A stretch of DNA of 64,000 nt from contig NZ_FXWJ01000001.1 in assembly GCF_900177795.1 (NCBI RefSeq), forward strand, positions 744,001 to 808,000. The letters run 5' to 3'. Below are positions 1 through 8,099 of this stretch, piece after piece; the stretch's first letter is position 1; every line of letters begins with the position of its first letter. The stretch comes from Plantibacter elymi (nom. nud.). Lineage in GTDB: Bacteria; Actinomycetota; Actinomycetes; Actinomycetales; Microbacteriaceae. A program made the translations under genes and the position numbers. A model generated the notes under the pieces. That model was not told the origin of the DNA, did no database searches, and saw nothing but the letters and a program-made list of their open reading frames with translations.

Positions 1-1
1 G

Positions 2-379
2 GGCGCAGAGGAACGAGCGTTCACTCTCCGTGTTCCGCTGGAGACAACGGCCACAAACTCGGCACGTCGATCGGCGCTGAGGCGCCGCATGATCGCTGAG
101 GGCTATTGGCATCGGCGCAAGACCGTGGAGCGCGAACTGGATGCGCATCTGCAGAAGTTGCGCGAGTTGGCAAATCCGCTTCCCAAGCGCAGCGCTCCTC
201 CTGACAACCGACGCCCGCGCCCATCGACGTCCGTATCAGCCACCGGCTCCGCGCCACCGGAGCCGCCGAACAAGCCTGGCTCTTCCTTCCTCGAGGAGTG
301 GCTCGCCAATCGGGCCACCCAACGATCCGCAGACGGCCAGCGACCCGCCGACCGCACTTCGAAAGGAAAGACACTGTGA
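2..379 (+). CDS. Hypothetical protein, probably cut by the left window edge
   Basis: The frame is open from base 2 with no stop, so the gene probably starts upstream of the window; the first internal ATG is at 89 (96 residues from there). The product is basic and rich in Arg, Pro and Ser, has a charged helical stretch (ERELDAHLQKLRE) and then a low-complexity Pro/Ser-rich tail. No family is recognised. Its TGA overlaps the GTG of the next gene by four bases, so it is the first visible member of a translationally coupled run of five unknown genes. The role is unknown. Confidence 0.5.
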   Translation, partial: GAEERAFTLRVPLETTATNSARRSALRRRMIAEGYWHRRKTVERELDAHLQKLRELANPLPKRSAPPDNRRPRPSTSVSATGSAPPEPPNKPGSSFLEEWLANRATQRSADGQRPADRTSKGKTL

Positions 380-687
380 ACGCCGAAGCCCATCCGGATG
401 CCGAGATTCTGGACAAGTACCTCGCCGCACTGACAGAGCTCGACCACGGGCTCCTCGACCTTCTCGACAAGGTGGCCACCGACACGGGCCTCTCTGAGAA
501 CCAGGCCCTCGCCTTGGCGATCATCGGTCTCTGGTCGCGAGCAAAGGACGTCGACGAAGGACGCGTCTACATCTCCGTCCCCGCCGACAGCGTGCGCTTC
601 TACAACACGCCCGACGGTCTCCTTCTCGGTGAGGGGAATGAGGCGTATGCGGAGGTGCTCGCTCAACTACGAGACGGTGCATCGTGA
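376..687 (+). CDS. Hypothetical protein, 103 aa, second gene of unknown cassette
   Basis: The GTG at 376 overlaps the stop of the previous gene (GTGA) and follows a GAAAGGAAAG ribosome-binding region, so it is preferred over the earlier in-frame start at 298, which would give a basic, shadow-like N-terminus. The product is acidic and mostly helical at first (LDKYLAALTELDHGLLDLLD), followed by a possible small beta domain (GRVYISVPADSVRFYNTPDG). No transmembrane segment or known catalytic motif is seen. It overlaps the following gene by four bases. The function is unknown; an adaptor or DNA-associated role is only a guess. Confidence 0.6.
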   Translation: MNAEAHPDAEILDKYLAALTELDHGLLDLLDKVATDTGLSENQALALAIIGLWSRAKDVDEGRVYISVPADSVRFYNTPDGLLLGEGNEAYAEVLAQLRDGAS

Positions 688-1160
688 GCGACGAAGTCTT
701 GCGCGATGCACGCGGGCGAGCCGAAGAGGCTAGGAGACAAGCCCTTGAACGCACGCGACGATCCACCTTGTCTGCTCTCGGCACCACATTTAGGCCTGCT
801 GACGTGAGGACACTGGGCAGTGCGCAGCAACTGACCGTCCCTCCGGAGATCCGACGGCGCTGGAGTTCGAGCGGTTCTGACGAATTGATGATGCTCGTCG
901 GAATTCGCCTCGATGGCGACGGCTTCTTGCTCCTTCCCCGTCACCGCGCCGCGGCGTGGCTAAGAGTCCCGGGAAACAAGAACGGAACGTTCCCGGTCTC
1001 ACTTCAGAGGGGGGGAAACTTCCACCTGCCCCGGCCGGTGCGGGAAGCATGGTCGTCGTCGGACATCGCGCGTATCGACCTGGGATACTGCTACCTGCTC
1101 GTGCCGAGGGCATCGATTGCGGTAGTGCTCGGCGAGTTCTGGGGAGCGGGAGAGAGCTGA
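684..1160 (+). CDS. Hypothetical protein with two AbrB/MraZ-like strand repeats
   Basis: Starts at GTG 684 inside the stop of the preceding gene. After a charged N-terminal helix, the 158-residue protein has two similar blocks. The first has QLTVPPEIRRRW, then a hydrophobic beta stretch ending GFLLLP (about residues 48-88). The second has NFHLPRPVREAW, then a beta stretch ending CYLLVP (about 111-145). Each looks like the 'strand, P-x-x-V/I-R, strand, L-L-P' pattern of swapped-hairpin AbrB/MraZ DNA-binding folds, so an internal duplication of such a fold is possible. This is pattern recognition only. Its stop overlaps the next ATG (ATGA). Confidence 0.55.
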   Translation: MSDEVLRDARGRAEEARRQALERTRRSTLSALGTTFRPADVRTLGSAQQLTVPPEIRRRWSSSGSDELMMLVGIRLDGDGFLLLPRHRAAAWLRVPGNKNGTFPVSLQRGGNFHLPRPVREAWSSSDIARIDLGYCYLLVPRASIAVVLGEFWGAGES

Positions 1161-1699
1161 TGACAACAAACGCGGTGATCGATCGATGCGGATTCGACTC
1201 CGCGCTACGGGGGGTGATCCCCGGGGAGGTGGGTACCTTGTACGACAGCTACATCCTCCCCCATAGCGAATACCGCGCGTACCTGACCGCCATGTTTCGC
1301 CTGCGGTTCGCGCCAGGGGCCCGCCCACCTGCACTGCAGGACCTTCTCAAAGGTGTGGCCGTGTCCTCCCAACCTTACGGATTGACGCTCGGCGCAGCTA
1401 TGCACATTAGTCTGCCCGAAGCGCTCTACAGTATCCCGGTCGTGCTATCGCAGGTGTCGGCCAGTGAGGTTCTGGACGGTGTGCGTATACACGCCGGGTA
1501 TCTTCAACTTCCTGCCGATTCAGCGGAGTTCATTGAGACGGCCATCCGAGCTCGCGCCGACGTGATCGCGTGCGGCCACGAGCAAAATACGTTGGCCCTC
1601 GCAGTGCTGCGTGAGTACCGGGTTCAGATCGCCATGCTGAATCACGAGTGCCGACTACGAGAAACGAAGGAGTTCAGCGATGACATCTCAGCGGGATAG
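1160..1699 (+). CDS. Hypothetical protein, 179 aa, fourth gene of unknown cassette
   Basis: The ATG at 1160 overlaps the TGA of the upstream gene (ATGA), which decides the start; an earlier in-frame ATG at 956 lies deep in the preceding gene. The protein is soluble-looking with alternating hydrophobic segments (ALYSIPVVLSQVSASEVLDGV) and a C-terminal part containing RADVIACGHEQNTLALAVLREYR. It has no membrane segment and no nuclease, ATPase or helix-turn-helix signature I can identify. It overlaps the next gene by 20 bases. Codon use is more mixed than in the core part of the window, in keeping with an acquired cassette. Confidence 0.55.
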   Translation: MTTNAVIDRCGFDSALRGVIPGEVGTLYDSYILPHSEYRAYLTAMFRLRFAPGARPPALQDLLKGVAVSSQPYGLTLGAAMHISLPEALYSIPVVLSQVSASEVLDGVRIHAGYLQLPADSAEFIETAIRARADVIACGHEQNTLALAVLREYRVQIAMLNHECRLRETKEFSDDISAG

Positions 1700-2078
1700 T
1701 ACGCAATCCTTCTCCGACCGACTCTCAAAGTTGCTGTACGACGAGTTGGAGCTGCGGGTCGGCATGAAACTGTCGGAGGGCATGAGTGACGATCAGATGC
1801 TCGAGTTTGAGGCCATAGTCAGCAAGGACACACCCCGACTCAGCGCCTGGCTCAGGCAGCACTCTCCAGATTTCGATAGTGACCCGAAGTTTCAGGCACT
1901 CGAAGAGCGATCTCCCGGCGTCGACGCGCTCGATCTCGTTGCCGACTATGCCGCTACGAAGTGGCTCGCTATCAATCGTCCTGACTACGAAACTTCGGTC
2001 AGAGCCGTGCGGACGGAGCTTGCTCTGACCACGCGCTCGTGCGCCGACCGGATCCTGGGCACTGACAGTGCCGGCTGA
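1680..2078 (+). CDS. DUF5663-like small helical protein
   Basis: 132 residues, acidic, predicted mostly helical, starting at ATG 1680 inside the previous gene. The segment LLYDELELRVGMKLSEGMSDDQMLEFE resembles the short helical DUF5663-type proteins, where '...G..Ls..L...q..Efe..i' is typical; the match is from memory and modest. The remainder (DALDLVADYAATKWLAINRPDYETSV) is helical and acidic. It closes the five-gene overlapping unit: about 180 bases with no recognised feature follow before the convergent AbiH gene. The function is unknown; DUF5663-type genes are often seen with mobile elements. Confidence 0.6.
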   Translation: MTSQRDSTQSFSDRLSKLLYDELELRVGMKLSEGMSDDQMLEFEAIVSKDTPRLSAWLRQHSPDFDSDPKFQALEERSPGVDALDLVADYAATKWLAINRPDYETSVRAVRTELALTTRSCADRILGTDSAG

Positions 2079-2261
2079 CCCGCACAGACAACACCACGAG
2101 GCTGGCCACGTGCAGAAGCCCGCTATCGCCCAACACCAACCTGCGTATCAAGGTGGTCCGCTACCTCACCACCCAGACGACCGGACGCCGAGTCCGGGGA
2201 GAGCCTGCTACGCCAATTCGTAGCGATGGTGCAGCTGGAAAAGTGCGGGTGCTCTTGTCAC

Positions 2262-3113
2262 TTATAAGACGTCACGTTCGAATGCGATCCCGAGGCCATA
2301 CCCATCGAAAGCCTGGCAGGCGTCCTCGAGCGCCACATCGTTGTAGGCGCATACGGTCCACGGGATGTCCTTCAACGTTCGTGCGAGATGCTCGAAGTAA
2401 GGCATATCCACCGCTCCGAAGGAGTGACCGTAAACCAGAATGCGCCTCAGGGGCTGAGTAATTGCACCAATAAAGTCGACCAACCTCTCGTGCTGGTAGA
2501 CCTTTTCGAAATCGTTCATACGGCGTGCAACTGCACCATATGCTCGAGAGCGGTAGAAATCAAAGTTCTCTTCGTCGTCGTATTGCCGCAAGATCCTGGT
2601 CCCCTGCAGTGTGCCTGGCGCGTAGCCAAGGATGAGCCGACTGACGCCGGATTCTCCGTGCAAGTGCAAAATACGCAAGGGATCGACACGATATAGATAC
2701 TCAAGCGTATGGGTGTAATTGAACGTCAGAAAGCGGTCACCTGATTGAAATAAGCCACCGAACTTCTGGAGCGGTACGGTGTAGTCAAGATTCTCGTCGG
2801 CGCGGCGCGCGAACTCAGCTAGGGGAAGGGTGAGAAGCTGTTCCGCTTCGTGGATGATCGCGTCCCGGTCGCCCTCCCGATCGGATCCTAAGTCTGGATT
2901 ATACTGGCTCAGATGATCCAAGACGAGGTCGATGTCGGGATGGGCCAGTCGCTCTTCCACGTCGGACCATAGATTGCCTCCGATGCTGTAGCTCTCCCAC
3001 TCGCCAGGGAATCGCTCAGCTTTTATGGCGATCGTTTTCAGGTGCGGGTCGTACATGGTTGGCAGGCCATGCTGCAGGTCGAAACCGTTCCCCAGCACAA
3101 ACAGAGTCGACAT
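2262..3113 (-). CDS. abiH: AbiH family abortive-infection protein
   Basis: 283 residues; known AbiH proteins are somewhat larger but variable. The family signature is clear: an N-terminal LFVLGNGFDLQHGLPT (residues 4-19), a central FLTFNYTHTLEYLY followed by ILHLHGESG, and a C-terminal VYGHSFGAVDMPYF. In the AbiH family these GNGFD, FNYT and HG/GHS motifs are diagnostic. AbiH was described as a lactococcal phage-exclusion protein whose biochemical mechanism is not settled. The base composition is clearly lower in GC than the window average, which suggests transfer. It is convergent with the unknown cassette and lies beside a restriction-modification remnant, as in defence islands. Start ATG 3113; no obvious partner gene. 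Confidence 0.85.
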   Translation of the reverse strand: MSTLFVLGNGFDLQHGLPTMYDPHLKTIAIKAERFPGEWESYSIGGNLWSDVEERLAHPDIDLVLDHLSQYNPDLGSDREGDRDAIIHEAEQLLTLPLAEFARRADENLDYTVPLQKFGGLFQSGDRFLTFNYTHTLEYLYRVDPLRILHLHGESGVSRLILGYAPGTLQGTRILRQYDDEENFDFYRSRAYGAVARRMNDFEKVYQHERLVDFIGAITQPLRRILVYGHSFGAVDMPYFEHLARTLKDIPWTVCAYNDVALEDACQAFDGYGLGIAFERDVL

Positions 3114-3290
3114 TTGATATTCTCCCTCACCGCGCTGCTATCTGAGGTATAGCATACGGTCGTTCCCAGAAGGTAGATCGAAACGTCGACGAAAAACGGC
3201 GAATCTCCAAGCGCTCGGCGCGCGCGTTCCAGCCAGGGCTGATGCGCCCTAACCGAACGATGCCTCAGCAATTCAGACATCACTTGCCGA

Positions 3291-4286
3291 TTACGACAGA
3301 TCGGTACCTGACATTTGATTCGGGTCTACCCGTCGTACGCGCCGATGCTTTGGGTTCGTCGGCCAGGAAGTTCCTCGTTGCTCTAGATCTGTCCTGGATA
3401 CAAGCGGCGAAGCCAGAACATCGGCCAGTAGCTGCTCTTGTTTTGGCTGCAAGGCAACGAGCTGTGTGAGCACAGACAACAATTCAATGAATTCAAGTGA
3501 CCCCTCACCAGGCCAGCTGGTCTCGATGAGGTCATCCAGCGGCGACGTACGTTTGCCACGCGGATCTGCACGACGATAGCCAATCCACGAATCTAGGACG
3601 TTCGAGCCGCCCACCGTGTAGTTGCGAACCTCAGCAGTCACATTAGTCCAGCGCCCGGCACCCAAGCCGATTGTCTCCAGGTCACTGTCATACTCAATTC
3701 CCGCCGGCATAGCCGTTCCAACTGATGCGTCGTAGGAGGGAAGAGTCAACTCAGCTTGCTCAGCACGGACATGTGATGATCCTCGTGGGTGAGCGCCCTT
3801 GTCCCCGTACGTGTGAAGCCAGATCACGTACTTACCTAATTCGACGGCCCGGTTCCACAGCCCAGGATCGCTCGTGATGGGGATGCGAACCCCGGGTGTG
3901 TGCAGCTCGGCGTCGAAAGTCTCGACAAATCCTGGATGAGAGGCGATCCCGGCCATATAGAAGAGAACCTCTTCTGCAGGTAAGAACCTGCCGTGTATGG
4001 CACCCAATGACTCCGTCAATCCGGGCGCGACATTGGCTGTGCCGTCGGGATGCAGCAATGGCAGAGTCCGACCTCCACCACTGCCCCTGAAGAAGTGCAT
4101 GTCGGGTATCAGCGCGGAGAAACTCAGCCCCGGGCCACTTCTAGGATACTCGCTATGCAGTTCTACCGCGTAGATCTGTCCGGGGATTCGGGCCTCCCAG
4201 ATTGGTGGTGCCGGCCTATGAATCAATCTACTATCGGCAATCAGATATTGCCGATCGAAGGAGCGATATCCTGAGTTGGATGACAA
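3291..4286 (-). pseudogene. Type ISP restriction-modification enzyme, C-terminal remnant
   Basis: About 331 residues matching only the C-terminal target-recognition region of type ISP (LlaBIII-like) enzymes: GYRSFDRQYLIADSRLIHRP near the N-terminus, then aromatic and proline-rich segments, the NYTVGGSNVLDSWIGYR block typical of this specificity domain, and a helical tail. Full enzymes of this class are about 1,500-1,600 residues, with nuclease, helicase and methyltransferase domains ahead of this part; all of these are missing. The frame can be opened only from a TTG at 4286, has no ribosome-binding site and meets a TAG at 4311-4313. The break coincides with the start of the opposite-strand integrase stub, so this is a recombination-truncated remnant. 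Confidence 0.75.
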
Positions 4287-4453
4287 CGCGGGTCTGCAGG
4301 AAGGCTGTGGCTACCCTCGTCGCGGATGAGCATGGTATCGAGGCAGCGAAAGAGCAGCTTGGTCATCACAACTCGTCAGTGACGAAGAAGCACTATGTGC
4401 CGCGACAACTCGAACGACCGAACGTGTCGCCCACCCTTGATGGACTTGCGTGA
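4275..4453 (+). pseudogene. Tyrosine recombinase (integrase), C-terminal stub
   Basis: The translated frame from about 4275 reads like the end of a phage-type tyrosine recombinase: CRKAVATLVADEHGIEAAK, then QLGHHNSSVTKKHYV. This contains the conserved R and the LGHH-x-x-x-x-T-x-x-x-Y arrangement with the nucleophilic tyrosine, followed by a short tail. The catalytic N-terminal two-thirds is absent. In the same frame upstream, the sequence becomes antisense to the type ISP remnant, so the breakpoint lies near 4275-4286. It is non-functional, but it marks an earlier integration and deletion event in the island. Confidence 0.75.
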
Positions 4454-4571
4454 TGCTCGGAGATCGGTGTCGAGTTAGCACCGACTACGAAACTTGCCGC
4501 GGCTGTCGTGCGCGGTGAGTGATTGCCGCAACTACTGAGACGGAGATCGTCCGCCGGTAGCCTGCAACCTT

Positions 4572-4592
4572 CATCTGTTGACACCGCAGATG
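4572..4592 (+). promoter_or_regulatory. Inverted repeat around a TTGACA box upstream of lsr2
   Basis: CATCTG (4572-4577) and CAGATG (4587-4592) form a perfect 6-base inverted repeat flanking TTGACA at 4578-4583, a consensus -35 hexamer. No strong -10 lies at 17 bases; TATCGT (4604-4609) is a weak candidate at 20. The layout suggests a repressible promoter for lsr2, but this is inferred from position only. Confidence 0.35.
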
Positions 4593-4704
4593 TCCGCTGT
4601 CGCTATCGTTGTACCTATTCCGAGCGTCGCTTCCCCCGCCGGGTCTCGCTGCATTCACAGCTGGTGACCTGATGGCGCTCGTTCTACAAAGGAGAGTAAA
4701 ACCC

Positions 4705-5046
4705 ATGGCACAGAAGATTGTTACCACTTTGGTCGATGACCTCGATGGCTCAGAACTGAAGCAGGGCGAAGGTAAGACGATCACGTTTGGTCTCGAAGGG
4801 TCGACGTACGAGATCGATCTGTCCGAGAAGAACGAGAAGGCGCTGCGTGAGGCGCTCGAGCCTTTCGTGAAGGCTGCGCGAAGCTCATCGCGACCCAAGG
4901 CGTCCAGCTCCACCAGCGCTAACCGAAGCGACAAGGAGGAGCTCGCGGCTGCCCGAAGCTGGCTCCGTGCCAACGGCCACGATGTCTCCGACCGCGGCCG
5001 CATCCCCGGCGCCCTCCTCGAGAAGTTCCGCGCCGCGGCGAAGTAG
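4705..5046 (+). CDS. lsr2: Lsr2 family nucleoid-associated xenogeneic silencer
   Basis: 113 residues, the usual Lsr2 length. ATG 4705 follows GGAGAG at 4691 and gives the canonical N-terminus MAQKIVTTLVDDLDGSEL. Residues 1-55 form the dimerisation domain (TITFGLEGSTYEIDLSEKN). A Ser/Ala/Lys-rich linker follows, then the DNA-binding domain with SWLRANGHDVSDRGRIP, whose RGR hook inserts into the minor groove of AT-rich DNA. Lsr2 is the actinobacterial counterpart of H-NS and silences acquired DNA. Here it lies between an integrase stub and lower-GC defence genes, so it may be an island-borne paralogue rather than the core copy; this cannot be settled without the rest of the genome. Confidence 0.93.
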   Translation: MAQKIVTTLVDDLDGSELKQGEGKTITFGLEGSTYEIDLSEKNEKALREALEPFVKAARSSSRPKASSSTSANRSDKEELAAARSWLRANGHDVSDRGRIPGALLEKFRAAAK

Positions 5047-5114
5047 GACGTGGGCCCGGCGGTGGGTGCCACAGGACTGTCGAGTGTGGCACTCAGCGCC
5101 GACCAGCAGAGAGG

Positions 5115-5933
5115 ATGATCGTGGCGCTGACGCTCGGTGCGATCTTGCGTGACGCCGATATCGGACTCTCTGACGCGCTCGTGATCCGCCACACCTACGT
5201 TCGCGAGCACGAGGAAAGCGGGCTGCGTGGAATCCACGGAGACTCGACGGACGACGAGATCCTCGAGTACACGCGAAACCAGTCTCCTGACCCAAGACGG
5301 TTCCCGATCGCGCCGGCTCCCCTCTGGGTGGTCTTCATCCGCGAGGGAGGTGACCGGGCGAGGCTCTGGTCGGTGGTGGAGAACCTTGGCGAAGTCGGGC
5401 GGACGGAGCATCTCCGGACGTTTGACCTTGTTCGGTCTCCGTGCATGGACGACCTCCGAAACCGGCTCGTCGTCGGTTGGCGGTCGCCGCGCAGTTGGCG
5501 GATGAACGCCACGACGGCAGCTGACTATCCCGTGGTCGGGATTGCTGACGCTGAGCCCCTGCCCTTTCCTGGTTTCGACAGACTCCTATTGAGTTACGAC
5601 CAGCTGCAGGCAGTGATGCGCGAGCCTCGGTACGCGTCCTGGCGGACCGCCCTGGCGTCAGTCATCGGGATCTACCTGATCACCGACACTCGAGACGGTC
5701 GGCACTACGTTGGGAAGGCCGACGGCGCGGAGAGCATCCGCCAACGCTGGAGTTCGTACGCTGCCAACGGGCATGGCGGCAACACCGGGTTGCGCGGACT
5801 CGATCCCATGAGCTTTCGGTTCTCGCTGCTGCGAGTGTTCGACCCGTCGACACCGACGCCGGTCATCGATATGGCTGAGAGTCACTTCAAGGTAGCTCTC
5901 GATACGCGTACGCATGGGCTGAATCGAAACTGA
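5115..5933 (+). CDS. GIY-YIG nuclease domain protein
   Basis: 272 residues from ATG 5115, which follows AGAGAGG. The C-terminal third is a GIY-YIG nuclease module: GIYLITD at about residue 185, HYVGKADG about 13 residues later, a conserved Arg in QRWSSYAANGHGGN, and the metal-binding Glu in MAESHFK near 255, all in the expected order. The N-terminal ~180 residues (LSDALVIRHTYVRE, LPFPGFDRLLLSYDQL) are shared by stand-alone actinobacterial GIY-YIG proteins whose substrate is not known. It probably cleaves DNA. Its place between Lsr2 and an ApeA-like gene in an island suggests a restriction or defence role, which is inference. Confidence 0.8.
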   Translation: MIVALTLGAILRDADIGLSDALVIRHTYVREHEESGLRGIHGDSTDDEILEYTRNQSPDPRRFPIAPAPLWVVFIREGGDRARLWSVVENLGEVGRTEHLRTFDLVRSPCMDDLRNRLVVGWRSPRSWRMNATTAADYPVVGIADAEPLPFPGFDRLLLSYDQLQAVMREPRYASWRTALASVIGIYLITDTRDGRHYVGKADGAESIRQRWSSYAANGHGGNTGLRGLDPMSFRFSLLRVFDPSTPTPVIDMAESHFKVALDTRTHGLNRN

Positions 5934-6131
5934 AGCTATCAACTGTCGAGTATCAGGTAGTCGCCGACTTTGATCCAGCCCCCCCCCGCGAACGCAAAAA
6001 TGCTGCCGGTCATGGACCCTAGCGGAGCGTGCTCCGAGGACGAGCGAAAGTCGTCTACCTAGCGCCCGGCGGTCGGACGGCATCCGAGCTCAAGTATTGG
6101 CTCACTGGCTGTACGTCCGTAGGCTGGCTGA

Positions 6132-7583
6132 ATGACAATCGAACAGCTCGCGACTGGATCATCACTCACTGGGCTGATTGTCGATGGAGTAGCAGGCACC
6201 CCGTACGCCGCGGGCACGTTGCGGATCGACGAGACTACTGGTCCGCTCCTCGAAGTACCGTACATTCGCGGTGACCCCACTGGTCAATTCGACCCAGTCC
6301 ACGAGTGGTTCTCAACGCGGACGCCGCCGACGAATCTTATCCTGCGAACATCAGAGGGAGACGTGTCACTCTTCGACGTGAGCTGGTTCGGTCATTCAGA
6401 GCGCAGCGGTCGGTCTGTATCGCTCGGCAAGTTACGCCCCTCCGAGATAGTCCTAGACACGCGTAAGGCAGATCTGTCGGCACCGCTCATGATTGCTGAG
6501 GTCAGGAGCCAAATGGATGGCTTGCGAGAATGGACCGAATTCTCCGCAATTGCAGAGGAGCGAACCACCGACGAACACAACTACATACGAGGCTTTCACA
6601 TCGACGTCTCGAGCGAGGCGTCGTTGGAGTGGCTTCAAGGGGACGCGAGAATGACACTACAAACGGATTGGCGCGCCGCGACCAGCCACGTTCGAGGTGA
6701 ACCCAGTGTTGGCGTTTTTGAGTGGGTTGTTCTCGATAGCGCTTTTAACTCGCCTGTCCCGTTCCTCACGCACCTTGTAGAGCACCAGAAGATCAAGCAC
6801 CTGCTCGTGCTGATGTTTGATGGTGCGATTCACTTCAGACAGCATCGAGTGAAGGACGAGAGCTTTGCTAAGCGGCACGGACGCATGTCAGAACTGCATC
6901 TGCCTTTCGTTGAGTTGATCAGCCGCCGCACCATACATGAGTACGCCGCGAGCGAGCCCGATGCGCGTGCGGCGAGAATGCCGCTCGTATACCTGGACCA
7001 GATCGGCGCAGAGGGGCTGACGAAGTGGTCTGATCGCTACGAGGCCTGGGAGCGCTTCATCCTGCCGACGGTTGGCGTTCTCGGGCGGCAAGACGTGTTC
7101 GTCGAAGATCTCGTGGTCTCCCTCTCCATGTCGGTTGAAGCCGCGGGGCATCTGATCGGTGTAGCGGAAGGGGAAGTCGAAACGTACGGGAGAAACCGCA
7201 AGCCGTCGACAGCGACCCACATCTACCGCTGCCTTCGTGCCGTCGATGTTGCATGGGGCGATCATGTGGAGAGCATTCTTGGTCTCGCGCGGGCCTCGGC
7301 AGACGTGTACAACTCGATCAAGCATTTTGATCGCGGTCAACTCCCCGATCACGAGGAGATGCTGCTCATCTCTCTTGTCCTGAGGCATCTCATCCGACTC
7401 ACCGCGCTCAACGTCATCGACTCGACGGGTCAGCTGATCCTCCAAGCGGACGGCCAGCGAGAACTAAGCGCCATCCATGCGAGGTTCTCCGTGATCGAAC
7501 GACGTGTTCGTCACGACGGCAGGTGGGAGCAGCTGCCAGTACGCGCTGAAAAGCCACTGCCTAAGGGGTTCACCACTTGGTGA
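6132..7583 (+). CDS. ApeA-like HEPN domain protein, candidate anti-phage effector
   Basis: 483 residues from ATG 6132. The N-terminal half resembles the ApeA N-terminal domain: a beta-rich start (GLIVDGVAGTPYAAGTLRID), repeated VSLFDVSWFGH and TNLILRTSEGD strands, and an aromatic-rich sensor region up to about 290. The C-terminal ~180 residues are helical and carry VYNSIKHFDRGQLPD (about 391-405), the position of the HEPN RNase motif R-[N/D/H]-x(3-5)-H. The residue before the Asn is Tyr, not Arg, so catalysis may differ or be lost. ApeA proteins are single-gene abortive defence systems that act through HEPN RNase activity. The gene stands alone between the GIY-YIG gene and tRNA-Gly. The assignment is by pattern and needs a profile search. 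Confidence 0.65.
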   Translation: MTIEQLATGSSLTGLIVDGVAGTPYAAGTLRIDETTGPLLEVPYIRGDPTGQFDPVHEWFSTRTPPTNLILRTSEGDVSLFDVSWFGHSERSGRSVSLGKLRPSEIVLDTRKADLSAPLMIAEVRSQMDGLREWTEFSAIAEERTTDEHNYIRGFHIDVSSEASLEWLQGDARMTLQTDWRAATSHVRGEPSVGVFEWVVLDSAFNSPVPFLTHLVEHQKIKHLLVLMFDGAIHFRQHRVKDESFAKRHGRMSELHLPFVELISRRTIHEYAASEPDARAARMPLVYLDQIGAEGLTKWSDRYEAWERFILPTVGVLGRQDVFVEDLVVSLSMSVEAAGHLIGVAEGEVETYGRNRKPSTATHIYRCLRAVDVAWGDHVESILGLARASADVYNSIKHFDRGQLPDHEEMLLISLVLRHLIRLTALNVIDSTGQLILQADGQRELSAIHARFSVIERRVRHDGRWEQLPVRAEKPLPKGFTTW

Positions 7584-7785
7584 GCGCCTCGGCGTGAACT
7601 CCGGGACCAAACGGGGCGGCGAAGCTTGAGTGGCGTCGGCGCCGCGGCAGCATCGCGGGAGAGGCTCCGCACCCGCATCACAAACGCAACTCAACGAATC
7701 CGGTGAGTAAACGGTGAGAGCCCGCCAGGAGGTGCTGAGGCAGGTGCGCAAGTCTCACGGCGGAACAGGCCGCTGACCAGGCATT

Positions 7786-7859
7786 TGGAGCGGATGACGG
7801 GAATCGAACCCGCGCTATCAGCTTGGGAAGCTGAAGTTCTACCATTGAACTACATCCGC
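7786..7859 (-). tRNA. tRNA-Gly (anticodon CCC)
   Basis: On the minus strand GCGGATG (7859-7853) pairs with CATCCGC (7796-7790) as the acceptor stem, and the T arm GCGGGTTCGATTCCCGT is canonical. The anticodon arm has stem CAGC/GCTG and loop TTCCCAA, giving anticodon CCC for glycine. The discriminator is U and a 3' CCA is encoded (7788-7786). The 3' end points towards the accessory island at lower coordinates, the usual side for tRNA-targeted integration. Confidence 0.95.
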
Positions 7860-7956
7860 GTGGCGCCGGAGCGTCCTGAGTAATCGTACATGACCCGGCG
7901 GGCCTCCGTTCGGTCCCTGTGTGCGGCCCCGTTCGATCCCTACGTGCGGCCCCGTT

Positions 7957-8099
7957 CGGTCCCTGAGCTTGTCGAAGGGCGGGGTGTGTTCGTGTGCCCT
8001 TCGACAGGCTCAGGGACCGGGGTTGGGCTCAGGGATCAGGGTTCGGCGCAGGGACCGGGGTTGGGCTCAGGGACCGGGGTTGGGCTCAGGGACCAGGGA
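7957..8099. repeat. Dispersed palindrome pair plus short tandem repeats
   Basis: This fills most of the 330-base gap between tRNA-Gly and the hydrolase. CGGTCCCTGAGCTTGTCGAA (from 7957) is followed about 20 bases later by the inverted arm CCTTCGACAGGCTCAGGGAC (about 7998-8017), which can fold into a long hairpin. After it, a 20-21 base unit, GGGGTTGGGCTCAGGGACC, derived from one arm, is repeated to about 8099. It is the first of seven occurrences of this element in the window and the only one at a divergent boundary. Confidence 0.85.

Follow-up and report, generated by a model that had tools for sequence, protein, structure and literature searches.

An operon with a coupling-protein-like ATPase at one end of a genomic island in Plantibacter elymi, and its possible use against invading DNA

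In the passages of PMC10853773 that deal with HerA/FtsK capture systems, motors from mobile elements are described as letting a defence apparatus intercept DNA during segregation, transfer or packaging; the systems listed there include DndFGH and combinations of HerA/FtsK with Orc/CDC6 or D5 helicases. The same passages report that tandem duplication lets DndE act as a monomer. A second point of comparison comes from conjugation, since in the F plasmid the tail of the coupling protein TraD docks the small protein TraM, as described in the relevant part of PMC7555446. Here we analyze an operon that lies across the left edge of a window of 64,000 nucleotides from Plantibacter elymi (C8:744001-808000 of the assembly) and that consists of the gene for a TraD/VirD4/HerA-like ATPase followed by four small genes, g2, g3, g4 and g5, in that order and with intact frames.

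The window opens with frames at 2-379, 376-687, 684-1160, 1160-1699 and 1680-2078, all on the forward strand. The first-pass annotation had counted five genes. Frame 2-379 is in fact the end of a longer gene of 776 codons (C8:742049-744379), which starts 1952 bases before the window and leaves its last 125 codons and stop in positions 1-379, so that the window holds four complete genes and a tail. The conjugation-type ATPase had been missed because the window cuts its gene. The complete genes are g2 (376-687, 103 amino acids, no known family), g3 (684-1160, 158 amino acids, two AbrB/SpoVT-like halves), g4 (1160-1699, 179 amino acids, no known family) and g5 (1680-2078, 132 amino acids, DUF5663). 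The overlaps that had been claimed for every junction are present as GTGA (4 bases each) at 376 and 684 and as 20 bases between g4 and g5 at 1680; the g3/g4 junction does not read ATGA, as had been stated, but TGATG, with the stop codon at 1158-1160, the ATG at 1160-1162 and one shared base. Scans for sigma-70 promoters and for terminators gave nothing above shuffles.

From its motifs and profile matches, the ATPase is placed in the FtsK/HerA class, with similarity to type IV coupling proteins. It matches TrwB_AAD_bind of Pfam with 22.7 bits, above the cut-off of 20.5, and TraG-D_C with 19.2 bits, below the cut-off of 22; DUF87 also stays below its cut-off. A Walker A motif (GKTGSGKT) is found at residue 299 and a Walker B motif (FYIHADEF) at residue 548. 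The best match to a HerA model has an E-value of 4e-8, and a profile search of solved structures returned only IcmO/DotL (E 0.0003) and TrwB (E 0.0055), both weak. The statement that none of the products matches a known family therefore does not hold: the operon is anchored on a TraD/VirD4-type ATPase, and g5 belongs to DUF5663, as had been suspected (PF18908, 31.0 bits against a cut-off of 23.7). Like the type IV coupling proteins TraD, VirD4, TrwB and IcmO/DotL, the ATPase has an extended tail, and a short motif close to the end of that tail is conserved. Unlike them, it has no N-terminal hydrophobic anchor and no accompanying relaxase or other type IV secretion gene was found; its best score of 38.8 bits is also far below the NCBIfam cut-off for TraD of 366.

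The first ~275 residues of the ATPase did not contain the best stretch of any of the family-scan matches listed (for NCBIfam, the best 25 of 29). They do align with the Streptomyces relatives described below and with a more distant ATPase, that of locus L062. The related ATPase of L063 aligns over the N-terminal part with the Streptomyces query, and with the Plantibacter protein only from residue 91.

The gene order is conserved outside the genus. In Streptomyces fungicidicus p1 (L006), an ATPase with 43% identity is followed by a 107-amino-acid protein, an AbrB-type protein and a 180-amino-acid protein; frames touch or overlap except for a 2-base gap after the ATPase gene. Streptomyces sp. 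NRRL WC-3626 (L008) has the same set from ATPase to g4, with 40% identity for the ATPase, and g5 is absent from both loci. The lengths of the ATPase, g2 and g4 are similar between the Plantibacter and Streptomyces loci. A search for conserved gene order, which the first-pass annotation had proposed as a check, thus gave a positive answer for ATPase-g2-g3-g4, and order kept at 40-43% ATPase identity argues that the genes are associated by more than chance.

A tree of 34 ATPase domains unites the Plantibacter protein and the two Streptomyces proteins in a clade with support of 100/99, with the L062 and L063 proteins as a sister pair (99/95); a warning about long branches applied to other parts of the tree, including L026. 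Outside these five clade members, a Replic_Relax gene directly follows the ATPase gene in 17/17 outgroup loci scanned, a sample that is not neutral, as these 17 were picked by eye from the 29 loci outside the clade because the start of the following frame resembled a Replic_Relax protein. The remaining 12 loci (L026, L028, L031, L033, L035, L040-L042, L044, L066, L068 and L071) lay outside that scan. None of the five clade members has a Replic_Relax match in the next gene; in the operon, g2-g3-g4 occupy the place that Replic_Relax has in the outgroup.

The N-terminal part differs as well. We calculated the 19-residue Kyte-Doolittle (KD) mean for all 34 ATPases with a threshold of 1.6, a measure of hydropathy only and not a transmembrane predictor. 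The best values before the ATPase domain were 1.16 for Plantibacter and 1.03 and 1.05 for the Streptomyces proteins, so that a hydrophobic segment is absent. At least 1.6 was reached by 14 of the 17 Replic_Relax-linked ATPases, by 4 of the 12 other outgroup proteins, several of which have hardly any part before the ATPase domain, and by none of the five in the clade.

A frame with one hydrophobic segment was observed elsewhere in the Plantibacter locus (L003 17482-17754, reverse strand; best KD mean 1.8), which may be spurious. Streptomyces frames that also have one hydrophobic segment lie at L006 7150-7668 and L008 5157-5699, both on the reverse strand, and in all three operon loci the frame diverges from the ATPase gene and starts 286-317 bases upstream of it. 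The sister ATPases (L062 7746-11758, 1193 amino acids; L063 7447-11612, 1239 amino acids) carry an extra N-terminal part of ~450 amino acids. Directly downstream of each lies the gene for a small membrane-type protein, with 56% identity between the two loci, so that the pair of genes makes up a second variant. No relation was detectable between the small membrane-type protein encoded upstream of the ATPase in S. fungicidicus and the one encoded downstream of the ATPase in L062. A CBASS pair, TRIP13 with a SAVED-PDDEXK effector, is found ~2 kb away from the L062 ATPase. Among the outgroup loci, L035 (2608-10787) has a TraD-like ATPase with two TPR/AAA (STAND-like) proteins and a CHAT-domain protein in its flanks, possibly a separate conflict gene set.

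The tail of the ATPase carries the motif FLEEWLANR (positions 287-313, forward strand), which has the same form in the two Streptomyces ATPases and in one Rhodococcus relative. The latter is a 738-amino-acid ATPase of another clade (L026), encoded on Rhodococcus ruber pYYL1.1 and directly followed by a DUF5663 gene. Its motif, FLDDWLARR, is nearly identical, and its DUF5663 protein matches g5 with an E-value of 4.5e-10 (40% identity in the MAFFT alignment). The pattern L[DE][DE]WLA.R occurs in 4/34 ATPases, from two clades, and nowhere else in the 1,734,452 six-frame residues of the collected loci. It is a possible docking motif for a small partner, by analogy with the F plasmid, where TraD likewise combines an ATPase tail with a small partner protein; there, however, TraM attaches to the final residues of TraD (relevant part of PMC7555446), whereas here 8-28 residues still follow the motif. 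The R. ruber DUF5663 protein had no match in the phage records, and no paper on DUF5663 turned up in our literature search. CHAT and TPR genes were also seen on the Rhodococcus plasmid, ~9-13 kb away.

Among the small partners, g3 is a putative DNA-binding subunit, with two AbrB-like halves in one chain. The duplicated AbrB pattern noted in the first-pass annotation gains modest support from the halves, which match each other at E 0.001 (pairwise BLASTP without composition correction), and from a profile of g3 and the two Streptomyces proteins, which matches AbrB structures at E 0.0013; against it, MazE of Pfam scores 15.4 bits, below its cut-off of 24.7, and g3 alone matched no solved structure. 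By pair, g3 and its Streptomyces counterpart are only marginally similar (E 0.016). The counterpart is a single-copy AbrB-like protein of 110 amino acids, annotated as AbrB/MazE/SpoVT in S. fungicidicus. For g4, the 180-amino-acid Streptomyces protein has 25% identity (E 1e-9). The 107-amino-acid protein in the place of g2 has similar size and 26-27% aligned identity, and pairwise BLASTP was not significant (E 0.56).

Two ideas that had arisen by eye were rejected. Pfam, PHROG and PDB searches gave no support for g2 as a ribbon-helix-helix protein, and its poor AF2 model is helical with hardly any strand. An alignment of g4 with PIN_3 by hhalign, examined for a PIN/VapC nuclease, scored 2.46, which was equalled or beaten by 59/99 column shuffles; the profiles were thin (3 g4 and 6 PIN_3 sequences), the power was low, and the positive control of PIN_3 against VapC had a probability of 55.4. 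A Foldseek search with the poor AF2 model of g4 returned nothing below E 1.8.

The gene set is rare in the collections searched. The ATPase was not found in any of 298 other genomes of the family at E 1e-20; at the same threshold, it was found in 16/395 other genomes of the phylum, all as partial matches (from ~position 245; best E 2.5e-43). Likewise partial matches at E 1e-30 came from 8/196 other genomes of the class, and at E 1e-40 two of the 91 genomes of one genus (that of G322) were hit, both with the longer sister type. At E 1e-10 the ATPase matched 4 of 72,556 plasmid records, with a match that extended over 80% of the query in a single record, and no plasmid record matched g4 or g5. 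In the six other genomes of the genus g4 was not found, and DUF5663 was found in 0/197 other genomes of the phylum. Three pattern scans of IMG/VR found no relatives, and a fourth, aimed at a PIN comparator, found none either. The NRRL WC-3626 locus was the sole result of a scan of genome contigs with two peptide patterns, a scan that is not exhaustive. No description of this gene set was recognised in the open-licence literature, subscription papers and preprints being outside the search, and in the part of the conflict-systems paper PMC7159879 covered by a term search, AbrB, VirD4, DUF5663 and DUF5682 did not occur.

A 10.85-kb genomic island (C8:740935-751839; window part 1-7839) carries the operon at one end and is delimited by a 57-bp direct repeat and by empty sites in congeners. 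The right copy of the repeat, a candidate attachment site, lies at 7783-7839 (C8:751783-751839) and is perfectly matched by the left copy at L003 16935-16991 (C8:740935-740991). Nearly all of the right copy falls within a tRNA-Gly(CCC) gene (7786-7859, reverse strand), with the repeat at the end of the tRNA. No tRNA was called in L003 or L004, and all that the Rfam scan found at the left repeat was an incomplete tRNA below threshold. In three congeners (L074, L075 and L076) the flanks meet at tRNA-Gly(CCC); the alignment is clean over ~1.5 kb on both sides in L074, in two pieces in L076 and partial in L075, and the other three congeners are uninformative, their left flank being unmatched beyond the tRNA. 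GC content is 0.54-0.66 in the insert (10,848 bp) versus 0.64-0.75 in the near flanks.

The defence-island setting proposed from the sequence of the window was borne out: the island is real, and some of its genes are of defence type. These encode AbiH (2262-3113, E 6.5e-37), a GIY-YIG/UzuA protein (5115-5933, E 8.3e-87) and an ApeA_NTD1-type protein (6132-7583, E 4.5e-9), the last of which had no PADLOC match at 0.01. The island also contains an Lsr2 gene, the C-terminal remnant of a truncated type ISP/IIG restriction-methyltransferase (3291-4286, reverse strand) and a probable C-terminal remnant of an integrase (4202-4453, forward strand; 83 codons), the latter mostly our own reading of a Pfam match under the cut-off (E 0.1). 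The overlap of the two remnants near 4202-4286 suggests a deletion junction inside the island. Outside the island, the intergenic stretch 7901-8098 holds tandem arrays of a 23-bp unit (x 2.8) and a 19-bp unit (x 4.8). A query containing them gave 182 matches in the genome itself and 80-174 in six congeners, most of those listed over this stretch, so the repeat is apparently abundant across the genome and the genus.

Taken against described systems, the operon resembles the HerA/FtsK capture systems, with a motor of that type apparently from mobile elements, adjacent putative DNA-binding partners, a conflict setting suggested by gene context and, as reported for one capture clade, a conserved motif in a C-terminal extension (passages of PMC10853773). 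Those systems have an active endonuclease and often helix-turn-helix domains; the operon has no recognised nuclease and an AbrB-like partner. We therefore say that it may work like a capture system, by analogy, and not that it is a member. The top PADLOC match of the ATPase is mad8, the Mad8 ATPase of MADS (E 1.3e-15), but no other MADS protein was present among the ten proteins scanned, and literature searches directed at MADS found nothing. HerA systems with DUF4297 or SIR2 differ too, as neither domain occurred among the same ten proteins.

Tentatively, and with a little less than an even chance in our estimate, we favour the reading that a motor resembling coupling proteins was captured for use against invaders, with an effector that would lie outside the recognised domains. 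Support comes from the conserved Streptomyces operon, the clade without anchor or Replic_Relax, the tail motif, the defence-type genes of the island, the CBASS genes near the L062 ATPase, the CHAT and TPR/AAA genes around that of L035, and the precedents of the capture systems and of TraD-TraM docking. The earlier idea of an undescribed defence or mobile-element module survives, given the order kept in Streptomyces and the lack of any ATPase match among 50,697 phage records, with the qualification that the ATPase is of conjugation type. Nor, as it stands, does the operon amount to a conjugative module of a known kind: among the scanned island proteins only the ATPase is of transfer type, and no relaxase, no type IV secretion protein (VirB4, PrgI) and no Replic_Relax was found.

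Under the favoured reading, a soluble TraD/VirD4/HerA-class translocase, akin to coupling ATPases from mobile elements, would drive a small complex directed against invaders. This translocase, which probably forms a hexameric ring like other members of its superfamily, would load on DNA that is entering, segregating or being transferred. AbrB-like g3, and perhaps g2, could provide a DNA-binding or autoregulatory handle for it, and the tail motif might dock g5 or another small subunit in the manner of the TraD tail and TraM. The complex would then block invading DNA or expose it to an effector; we guess that g4 or g2 is this effector or its adaptor. A more detailed scenario, which we consider doubtful as a whole, is a stand-alone machine from a domesticated coupling ATPase that lost its anchor and relaxation partner, has a fused pseudo-dimer as AbrB-type partner and acquired a docking motif with DUF5663 or g2/g4 subunits, so that an export motor now intercepts DNA that enters or is being transferred, g4 being an effector with a new fold.

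Several observations weigh against this reading. No nuclease or effector domain was found in g2-g5 by Pfam, NCBIfam, PHROGs or PADLOC, and published capture systems have one. The AF2 models are too poor for use (mean pLDDT 39.9 for g4 and 50.4 for g2), and the homology of g2 rests on position and size together with its aligned identity. The full ATPase-g2-g3-g4 set was found at only three loci, of which the S. fungicidicus copy adjoins DUF5682/vWA/AAA and sugar-metabolism genes and no recognised defence island; defence-related neighbours are in any case not proof of a defence function. The docking role of the tail motif is an analogy, and DUF5663 need not be its partner, because the Streptomyces loci keep the motif without DUF5663. 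Given its absence from the other phylum genomes searched, DUF5663 may be an incidental addition to the operon. Lastly, a strong hydrophobic segment is also missing from 3/17 of the outgroup ATPases with a Replic_Relax link.

The main rival is an accessory of DNA transfer, in which the ATPase and relaxosome-type DNA-binding helpers would serve a helper conjugative element that mobilises the island or its ancestor. The superfamily of the ATPase is that of the type IV secretion coupling proteins, many of its wider relatives adjoin Replic_Relax genes, the island is integrated, has the operon at one end and holds a probable integrase remnant, and a tyrosine integrase is adjacent to the sister ATPase of L063. 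We nevertheless regard this explanation as unlikely, if worth serious attention, in view of the missing transfer partners in the island, the missing hydrophobic segment, the clade without Replic_Relax neighbours and the S. fungicidicus record, which has no annotated transfer gene within ~8 kb.

Less probable still is a toxin-antitoxin-like pair joined to the ATPase as an addiction or abortive module, with g3 as an antitoxin of the AbrB/MazE/VapB type and g4 as the overlapping toxin. The similarity of g3, the antitoxin-before-toxin order with overlapping frames, as in VapBC and MazEF, and the same g3-g4 order in Streptomyces fit such a pair. What g4 lacks is a match to any toxin family, PIN and MazF included, and the low-powered PIN fold test gave no support. 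Moreover, the best conserved part is the ATPase, which a plain toxin-antitoxin pair does not need; VapBC and MazEF do not comprise five genes with an ATPase among them. The least probable explanation sees in the operon a remnant, decaying or regulatory, that has no function today. It would have company in the truncated type ISP enzyme and the 83-codon weak integrase match of the same island, but all frames of the operon are open, the catalytic motifs of the ATPase are intact, and order and overlaps have been kept relative to the diverged Streptomyces loci.

If the favoured reading is true, the operon would be a compact, testable case in which a DNA motor of conjugation type has been turned against mobile DNA. 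The lack of a hydrophobic anchor, the lack of a Replic_Relax neighbour and an L[DE][DE]WLAxR tail would then be markers for finding others, and the operon would offer a first functional handle on DUF5663.

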